Source of the DNA: Candidatus Dormiibacterota bacterium
GTDB lineage: Bacteria > Chloroflexota > Dormibacteria > Dormibacterales > Dormibacteraceae
Assembly (NCBI GenBank): GCA_955652835.1
Contig: CATPBO010000038.1
Coordinates: 1-55,634, forward strand
Direction of reading: 5' to 3'
DNA: 55,634 nt
The notes beneath the pieces were generated by a model, which had not been told where the DNA came from, did no database searches, and saw nothing but the letters and a program-made list of their open reading frames with translations. The position numbers and the translations under genes were made by a program. Shown piece after piece: positions 31,547 through 33,700 of this stretch. How positions within the stretch are numbered: position 1 is the first letter of the stretch; each line of letters begins with the position of its first letter.

Positions 31547-31993
31547 GTGGCGTCGTGGACCGAGTTCGAGGCGGCTGAGCCCGAATTTGCTTCGCGGGTG
31601 CGGGCGCTGATGGCATCGCGCAGGCATCTCACCATGGCCACTCTGCGCGGTGACGGCTCGCCGCGAATCAGCGGCACCGAGGTCGAGTTTGCCGATGGGC
31701 AATTGCGCATCGGGTCGATGAGCGGCGCTGTGAAAGCGCAGGATCTGCTCCGCGATCCGCGAGTCGCCATCCACGGCCCGACCCATGACCCGCCCGCCGA
31801 CAGTCCAGCAGCCTGGAAGGGCGAGGCAAAGATCGCCGGCACCGCTGTCGCAGTCGAGTCTGGTGCCGCCGCCCACAGATTCCTCATCGACGTCCAGGAG
31901 GCCGTGATCACACGCTTGAACGAAGCCGGCACTCGCCTTGTGGTCGAATCCTGGAATCCCGTTCGTGGCTATCGCAGGTTTGAGCGCGAGTAG
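31547..31993 (+). CDS. Pyridoxamine 5'-phosphate oxidase family protein (F420/FMN split-barrel)
   Basis: The GTG start 15 bp after the OsmC-like stop gives 148 residues. The split barrel begins VRALMASRRHLTMATLRGDG, then SPRISGTEVEFADGQLRIGS and KAQDLLRDPRVAIHGPTHDP, the classic PNPOx pattern in which a short core binds FMN or F420. A helix and a final strand LVVESWNPVRGYRRFERE complete it. Proteins of this size are usually flavin or deazaflavin-dependent reductases or binders of unknown substrate, not PdxH. It probably shares a transcript with the OsmC-like gene. Confidence 0.8.
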   Translation: MASWTEFEAAEPEFASRVRALMASRRHLTMATLRGDGSPRISGTEVEFADGQLRIGSMSGAVKAQDLLRDPRVAIHGPTHDPPADSPAAWKGEAKIAGTAVAVESGAAAHRFLIDVQEAVITRLNEAGTRLVVESWNPVRGYRRFERE

Positions 31994-32001
31994 ACGCCTT
32001 T

Positions 32002-32045
32002 AAGGGCCGGCTCCCCCGTCCCTGATGGGGAAGGGATGGGCCCTT
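32002..32045 (+). terminator. Two-part hairpin after the PNPOx-family gene
   Basis: Outer arms AAGGGCC (32002-32008) and GGCCCTT (32039-32045) enclose an inner stem TCCCT (32019-32023) / AGGGA (32032-32036). It lies 8 bp past the stop codon, where a terminator would isolate the next unit. No T run follows, so factor-independent termination is uncertain. Confidence 0.4.
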
Positions 32046-32096
32046 CCGACTTGTAGCCAGGCAACACTGCGCAAAGAAAGCACCGCCGGATCGAGC

Positions 32097-32125
32097 TTTG
32101 AGTTGACACCGATCGTCAACTCAAA
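32097..32125. promoter_or_regulatory. Perfect 11-bp inverted repeat upstream of the peptide/XRE-TPR unit
   Basis: TTTGAGTTGAC (32097-32107) and GTCAACTCAAA (32115-32125) are perfect complements with a 7-bp spacer. The left arm contains most of a consensus -35 box, TTGACA (32103-32108). The peptide gene starts 35 bp after the right arm. Position and symmetry fit a dimeric regulator site, most simply that of the XRE-TPR protein encoded just downstream. Confidence 0.6.
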
Positions 32126-32160
32126 CGACACTCGCGGCATCCCGTAACTGGAGGTGCGCA

Positions 32161-32256
32161 ATGCGCAAGCTAATGCTCTCGTTGTTCCTTACGGTGGTGG
32201 CCATCGCGATCTCATTCGTGCCGGTTGCGGCAGCAGGGATCGGCCCCACCCCGTAA
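32161..32256 (+). CDS. Short exported peptide (31 aa), candidate signalling pro-peptide
   Basis: The ATG follows a GGAGG site (tggaggtgcgca) at a suitable spacing. The product starts MRKLMLSLFLTVVAIAISFV, a compact signal peptide: two basic residues, a hydrophobic core, and a PVAAA cleavage region. Only the tail GIGPTP remains after predicted AAA|G cleavage. The stop is 43 bp before the ATG of the XRE-TPR regulator, so the two are almost certainly co-transcribed. Tiny secreted peptides beside TPR-containing HTH regulators are the layout of RRNPP quorum-sensing pairs. It could also be a leader peptide or a simple small membrane protein. It is too short to be called by default in most annotations. 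Confidence 0.55.
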   Translation: MRKLMLSLFLTVVAIAISFVPVAAAGIGPTP

Positions 32257-32299
32257 ATTCAGCCGTTAAGTTCGGCTCAGATGTGTCGAGTGTGGCGGT

Positions 32300-33700
32300 A
32301 TGGTTACCGCCATGCTCGACAGCCGCTACAAAGGCCGCCGTAAAGGAGTAGCCGTTCGCGAAGGCTCGGTCCGCCAAGCAAGGCTGGAAGCCAGCCTCAG
32401 CCTTGCCCAGGTCGCGGCGGGCCACGTCAGCCGGACCGCCATTCATCTAATCGAGTACGGCCGCGTCAAACCGTCACTCCAAACGCTTCGGGTGATCGCC
32501 CGCCAGACGCGCAAGCCCATCAGCTACTTTCTGCTTGACCCCGACGCCCATCCAGAGCTGACCGAAAGGCACAAGGAGCTGCGCGAGCTCGAGACCTTGA
32601 CCGTCGTCCGCGACTTCGGCGCCGTCGTCAAGCTGGGCCTTGCCCAGCTGGACAAGCGGTGGGCCGACGAAGATCTCGCGCTCACGCGCTTTTATCTGGG
32701 CCAGGCCTATTGCAGACTAGTTCAACCGGAAGAGGCGCTCCTGTATCTATCGCCGGCGCGGGCACAATTCGAGCGGCAGGAAGACGAGCTGTTGGCCGTC
32801 GATGCGCTCGACTGGGAAGCGAGTGCCTTGGGCTTATTGGAAGATCCGAACGCGATCGGTCTGGCGAACCTGGCCCTGGAGCGTTGCCGGAAAATCGATC
32901 CCACGCCACAGCAGCTCGAGGCTCGGATCCTGGGCCACCTGGCCAACATGTTCGTCGTCGCCGAATCTTGGGGCTTGGCGATAAGCCACTACCAGTCCGC
33001 TGTCGAAGCGGCCAGCGCAGTGAAGGATCTCCTTCAGCTGGCGAAGATGCACCACGGTCTCGGTCTTGCCTACCTGCAACTGCGCCAGCCTGCGACAGCA
33101 CGCCGGCACTTCGATCTGGCACTGGCGCTCTACTCGATGGAATCAGATACGAGCGCTGTCTTCCGTGTGGAGAATGATCTCGGCAACTTGCTTCTGCACG
33201 AAGGCCACATCGACTCGGCCGAACGACATTTCCTGACCGCTCTGGCCGGGGCCGAGGAGCTTGGCATGAATCGACGCGGTCGTGGATTCATCCTCGCCAA
33301 TCTTGGCGAAGTCTGTTTGAAACAGGGCCGCCTGGATGAGGCCCGAAGCTATTTGAACCAGGCGTTGGAGGTAGGAGAGGCCGTCGGTGAGCGAATCGTT
33401 CTTACCGTGGCTGGGATTCTCCTCGGTCAACTTGACGAGCGGCTTGGCAATACCCAGGCAGCAGATAACCACTTTCTTGAAGCGGTGCGCATTCTCGAGG
33501 AGCTCGAGATGCCAAATCGCCTCCGTGACTGTCACCTGGCGTATGCCCAGGTCCTGGAGGCCCGTGGGGATCTGCGCCCAGCCATCCGCCACATGCGTTT
33601 GGCGGCTGAGCTCGGCCGGCCTGAGGCTGTCGGGATCCCTATCGATCGTCCGGACGAGCAGACGTCCGTCTTACGGAAGCACGGTCGGTCGGTTTCCTAA
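32300..33700 (+). CDS. XRE-family HTH regulator with TPR repeats (RRNPP-like)
   Basis: The product has 466 residues; a second ATG four codons in is also possible. The N-terminal HTH (about 20-75) reads VREGSVRQARLEASLSLAQV, AAGHVSRTAIHLIEYGRVKP and SLQTLRVIARQTRKPISYFL, a typical XRE domain. The rest is an array of TPR-type helical pairs, roughly 100-440, with ALTRFYLGQAYCRLVQPEEA, LGLAYLQLRQPATARRHFDL, LGNLLLHEGHIDSAERHFLT, LGEVCLKQGRLDEARSYLNQ and AYAQVLEARGDLRPAIRHMR. HTH plus TPR is the architecture of peptide-sensing regulators (PlcR, PrgX, Rgg) and of some antibiotic regulators. The upstream short exported peptide and inverted repeat are probable ligand source and operator. It converges on htpX. 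Confidence 0.85.
   Translation: MVTAMLDSRYKGRRKGVAVREGSVRQARLEASLSLAQVAAGHVSRTAIHLIEYGRVKPSLQTLRVIARQTRKPISYFLLDPDAHPELTERHKELRELETLTVVRDFGAVVKLGLAQLDKRWADEDLALTRFYLGQAYCRLVQPEEALLYLSPARAQFERQEDELLAVDALDWEASALGLLEDPNAIGLANLALERCRKIDPTPQQLEARILGHLANMFVVAESWGLAISHYQSAVEAASAVKDLLQLAKMHHGLGLAYLQLRQPATARRHFDLALALYSMESDTSAVFRVENDLGNLLLHEGHIDSAERHFLTALAGAEELGMNRRGRGFILANLGEVCLKQGRLDEARSYLNQALEVGEAVGERIVLTVAGILLGQLDERLGNTQAADNHFLEAVRILEELEMPNRLRDCHLAYAQVLEARGDLRPAIRHMRLAAELGRPEAVGIPIDRPDEQTSVLRKHGRSVS

Follow-up and report, generated by a model that had tools for sequence, protein, structure and literature searches.

The inverted repeat at positions 32097-32125 of a 55,634-nucleotide contig from Candidatus Dormiibacterota (the window, meaning the whole stretch of DNA that was analyzed) is probably the operator of a self-contained, autoregulated peptide-signaling cassette in which an exported peptide is sensed by an XRE-TPR regulator. 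This reading is built from sequence comparison. It draws together a conserved operator/promoter-like region, a peptide gene, a proposed receptor gene, and the linkage and co-divergence of these parts.

The proposed operator has the form TTTGAGTTGAC-N7-GTCAACTCAAA and is assigned to neither strand. In full it reads TTTGAGTTGAC-ACCGATC-GTCAACTCAAA, with perfect arms of 11 bp and a spacer of 7 bp. The first-pass annotation had described an exact 11-bp inverted repeat around an N7 core, a -35-like TTGACA within its left arm, and a distance of 35 bp to a short peptide ORF downstream. The sequence is as claimed, the hexamer lies at 32103-32108, and 35 bp separate the end of the right arm from the ATG at 32161. 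The symmetry of the repeat alone is not significant, because similar perfect repeats (arms of at least 11 bp, loops of 3-15) arise at a rate of about 0.4 per window under dinucleotide shuffling (12 shuffles) versus 2 in the real window. The other perfect 11-bp inverted repeat in the window is at 380-416 and has a 15-bp loop. Allowing up to three mismatches, the 32097-32125 repeat occurs once in the 55-kb window and in none of 100 shuffles. The assembly (2.63 Mb, 85% complete) holds a single exact copy, and a looser pattern (N5 or N6 core, up to three mismatches) has this site as its sole match in the source genome. A genome-wide search for copies had been proposed in the first-pass annotation, which took dozens of copies as evidence against an operator; the site is essentially single-copy.

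That the repeat exceeds chance follows from its conservation in nine orthologous loci whose flanking upstream DNA is not conserved. Using the downstream XRE-TPR protein as a query against 61 related genomes, close orthologs were found at 59-70% identity, together with many paralogs at 35-41%. Those relatives that are named are metagenome-assembled genomes of Candidatus Dormiibacterota / Chloroflexi, and the ortholog set is composed of nine loci from eight genomes. Upstream of the small ORF, these loci share a single conserved island, TGAGTTGACA-N5/6-GT(C/T)AA(C/G)TCA-nn-CGACACTC, followed by CAT and the ribosome-binding site. Outside of this island, the upstream DNA is unalignable. The left arm is invariant, presumably because it carries a double load as operator half-site and TTGACA hexamer. 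The right arm is slightly variable.

TTGACA (32103-32108, forward strand) is the probable -35 element; it is invariant in 9/9 loci and is retained in a degenerate locus of genome G002. On the same strand, CGACACTC (32126-32133) is a non-consensus block at the -10 position whose 8/8 columns are invariant in the nine loci, and it is also retained in G002. It contains GACACT (32127-32132), which is spaced 17-18 bp from TTGACA. GACACT is a poor -10, but the invariant CGACACTC stands where a -10 would be expected. In the STGP-group paralogue clade, a matching TTGAC is followed at ~17 bp by TATAT-like -10 hexamers. A scan of 31950-32400 detected neither a consensus sigma-70 promoter or -10 nor a terminator. 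The ribosome-binding site of the peptide gene, GGAGG (32150-32154, forward strand), is conserved across the family.

The gene for the small, putatively secreted peptide (32161-32256, forward strand) encodes 31 amino acids, MRKLMLSLFLTVVAIAISFVPVAAA-GIGPTP, and its orthologs in the nine loci have 31-32 codons. In 36/36 pairs of the nine sequences pN is below pS, which identifies the ORF as a real coding gene under purifying selection. The IGPT codons carry synonymous changes only, so the residues are invariant; one copy ends in GR and not in P. The peptide begins with MRK/R. A hydrophobic core follows, then an A-x-A-like motif that includes the alanine at position 24, and finally a tail of 6-9 residues. 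The conserved MRK start, hydrophobic core, and A-x-A make up a putative Sec-type signal peptide, as judged by composition and motif. Most related XRE-TPR genes are preceded by the same layout with different tails, including STGPGV/I, SWPPGT, DTICHCS, GIGPCC, VPPCC, and others. The first-pass annotation recognized the short peptide ORF but missed that it belongs to a family of putatively secreted peptides regularly paired with XRE-TPR receptors.

This pairing is strict across the family. In a peptide-profile search of 42 whole genomes, each of the 45 matches at E<=1e-5 is followed, 26-183 bp downstream and on the same strand, by an XRE-TPR gene. The next match, at E=1.6e-5, begins 43 bp from the end of a contig, and another seven, weaker still (E>0.002), are situated elsewhere. 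Since 20 of the matched peptides went into building the profile, and its training thus partly overlapped with the loci searched, the evidence lies in the remaining matches and in the absence of matches elsewhere. A receptor clade of approximately two dozen members, in most cases a single one per genome, lacks a peptide ORF on either strand within the ~700-900 bp upstream, where available. Its members may be orphan or eavesdropping receptors. This clade is well supported and mostly lacks an adjacent peptide (L087, L024, L092-L096, L104-L106, and others). For 16 distant homologues in other Chloroflexota families, no peptide was found within the 600 bp searched. Within the same class, a second family has peptides upstream of more distant XRE-TPR genes (L140-L146, L149, L151, L154, L155). 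Their tails include VWPNP(L/S/T) and IWPAPF, and L149 encodes a propeptide with repeated IWPN. In several peptides of this second family, an LSC resembling a lipobox precedes the tail.

The proposed receptor is a 466-aa XRE-TPR regulator (32300-33700, forward strand, with its start at 32300 or 32312) that begins ~44 bp after the peptide gene. It is composed of an HTH_3 domain (Pfam, 5e-6, residues 24-77) and tandem TPRs (TPR_12, 9e-26). AlphaFold2 predicts a confident all-helical TPR superhelix (pLDDT 84, pTM 0.68). When this model was searched with Foldseek, LGN/Pins TPRs ranked top by E-value, and the Rap protein of phage Phi3T, solved with its pheromone, shared the best TM-score (TMq 0.57). 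In a PDB sequence search, as by Foldseek E-value, human LGN and designed TPRs outranked Rap, which was matched through its TPRs only. None of the named RRNPP family models (Rgg, PlcR, NprR, Rap, AimR) in Pfam and NCBIfam reached threshold. The TPR and HTH similarity of the regulator is generic, and the predicted fold would suit a peptide receptor but is not proof of one. An inverted repeat, GGCGGTA-TGGT-TACCGCC (32294-32311, forward strand), spans the translation start of the receptor and may form a hairpin. It is kept as GGCGGT-N6-ACCGCC in most orthologs with a varying loop, and it could act on receptor translation. Short proteins with the same XRE domain, but without the TPR array, recur in several genomes (open frames of ~147-165 aa; G010:C52, G030:C28, G020:C199, G064:C86, G062:C400, and G063:C81).

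Tails and operators follow the receptor clades. In a tree of 74 receptors, the tails sort by clade and the presence of a peptide requires five changes. Clade-specific tails across the class include IGPT, STGPG, WPPGT, PPCC, CHCS, and VWPNP. The distance between receptor TPRs correlates with the distance between tails (r=0.71, and r=0.53 when controlling for signal-peptide distance; 0/2000 permutations), a correlation that cannot fully separate coevolution from shared descent. The inward operator type, GTTGAC-N5..8-GTYAA, is present in 9/9 loci of the IGPT clade, in 0/39 other peptide-bearing paralogue loci, and in none of the shuffles. An outward GTCAAG...CTTGAC repeat, with 7-9 bp between the arms, is found upstream of peptide genes in three other receptor lineages (L013, L026, L023).

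Genome G002, from the same genus, has a degenerate copy of the locus (L125, G002:C29, ~314.7-315.4 kb) in which the peptide and the HTH have been deleted and a TPR-only frame remains. TTGACA and CGACACTC are intact, and the right arm has decayed to ACAACTGA. In this single case, the pattern matches the expectation for hexamers that serve as the promoter and a repeat that is the site of the HTH. The ATG of the TPR-only frame is very near the presumed -10, and its transcript may be leaderless. Taken with the restriction of the operator type to its own receptor clade, the decayed right arm in G002 leaves a site for an XRE dimer, as the first-pass annotation had suggested, as the best reading of the repeat.

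The genes flanking the cassette differ between orthologs outside the genus, so the unit is the cassette of operator/promoter, peptide, and receptor. No conserved modification, immunity, or export genes were found in the flanks. An operator search of nine genomes, allowing up to three mismatches, returned essentially the cassette's own site alone, and from this near-absence of further copies the circuit is most likely self-controlling. One extra operator-like site, TGAGTTGACTACCGTTGCAACTCA, was set aside; it occurs only in three genomes of genus g2 (L122, L123, L124), where it falls at the 3' end of a hutI-like gene, with a 131-aa membrane protein encoded downstream. A plasmid scan returned generic TPR matches only, and a viral-contig scan returned one weak HTH-only relative.

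In the proposed mechanism, the propeptide would be secreted and cleaved after A-x-A to yield a peptide of ~6-8 aa, here ending in GIGPTP. The mature peptide would then be re-imported by an oligopeptide permease. Such import is possible because the source genome encodes three SBP_bac_5 oligopeptide-binding proteins. Inside the cell, the peptide would bind within the TPR superhelix and alter the hold of the HTH dimer on the repeat, thereby autoregulating the peptide-receptor operon. Since the repeat spans the -35 to -10 spacer, repression that is lifted by the peptide, giving positive feedback, is moderately favored over activation.

Other explanations of the repeat and its neighbors were weighed. 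The repeat may be the operator of the XRE-TPR regulator while the peptide is merely a regulated product, such as a secreted effector, an antimicrobial, or a surface peptide, and not the ligand. The peptide and regulator do form one unit, and some tails end in CC, which is unusual for pheromones. This account is unlikely, given that the mature tail would be just 6-9 residues, that the tails diverge along with the receptor TPRs even when the signal peptide is controlled for, that the flanks hold no conserved genes for modification, immunity, or export, and that G002 lost the peptide and the HTH together. Small hydrophobic ORFs directly before an XRE gene, with a palindrome in the promoter, are typical of toxin-antitoxin pairs. 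The gene layout and palindrome position here match such pairs, with a small hydrophobic toxin and an XRE antitoxin that would autorepress via the palindrome. The long TPR array of the regulator and the clade that retains the regulator without any peptide argue against this interpretation, and the conserved A-x-A and invariant short tail are less easily explained by a membrane toxin than by a peptide that is secreted and processed. A toxin-antitoxin-like pair is quite improbable.

It is more improbable still that the repeat is an RNA hairpin, a chance palindrome, or a terminator. Perfect repeats as large as this one are not uncommon by chance in a 55-kb window, but the site lacks a T-run and is the sole conserved upstream island. 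In addition, 4/9 orthologs carry a right-arm change, GTCAAGTCA, that would break RNA pairing, is uncompensated, and leaves the DNA half-site recognizable. These changes make a DNA site the better reading than an RNA stem, and the RNA hairpin was rejected on this basis. The peptide-signaling cassette with the repeat as its operator remains the preferred explanation.

The cassette resembles the RRNPP/RRNPPA systems (Rap-Phr, Rgg-SHP, NprR-NprX, PlcR-PapR, PrgX, AimR-AimP). RRNPP_detector uses a five-point signature composed of a propeptide of 10-100 aa, a Sec-type signal, a receptor of 250-500 aa, TPRs, and adjacent genes, and was run on Firmicutes and viruses (PMC10075063). An RRNPPA survey used profiles of seven known subfamilies, with matches concentrated in Bacilli (PMC9765709). 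The Dormibacterota cassette fits the signature, with a putative Sec-type signal judged by composition and motif. The peptide is 31 aa, the receptor is 466 aa with TPR_12, and the two genes are ~44 bp apart. An N-terminal HTH, found in all RRNPP receptors but Rap, is represented by HTH_3, and the HTH-TPR architecture is that of PlcR, NprR, and PrgX. Unlike RRNPP systems, the cassette belongs to another bacterial phylum and matches no named RRNPP family model. The peptide gene also precedes the receptor gene, and the tail is apparently freed in one step by signal peptidase.

Two further systems are comparable. As in arbitrium (AimR-AimP) of SPbeta-like phages, a short peptide would derive from a small secreted propeptide and be read by an HTH-TPR sensor with few sites, but the Dormibacterota cassette is chromosomal and not part of a phage. 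As with lambda/P22-type XRE repressors, which are autoregulated by promoter palindromes, a dyad operator would lie over the promoter of its own operon. The Dormibacterota regulator differs from those repressors in its long array of sensory TPRs and in its linkage to a putatively secreted peptide.

Among open-licence papers, no report of RRNPP or peptide quorum sensing in Chloroflexota/Dormibacterota was found, and those searched treat RRNPP signaling as a trait of Firmicutes/Bacillota and phage. The peptide-receptor cassettes would be an apparently undescribed peptide-signaling family in uncultured soil Candidatus Dormiibacterota / Chloroflexi. More tentatively, and with somewhat less than an even chance, Dormibacterota/Chloroflexota may have a diversified, class-wide set of pheromone-receptor cassettes that provides each genome with several orthogonal channels. 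These would have evolved independently of Firmicutes RRNPP, when a local XRE-TPR lineage became linked to a secreted peptide; relatives of this lineage in other Chloroflexota families are peptide-less. If the cassettes do signal by peptide, an abundant and largely uncultured soil lineage would share the RRNPP logic with codes of its own (IGPTP, STGPG, WPPGT, PPCC, WPNP). It would provide a second case in which to study how pheromone-receptor specificity diversifies, and, for lineages that are hard to cultivate, the peptide codes would supply synthetic signals open to testing.
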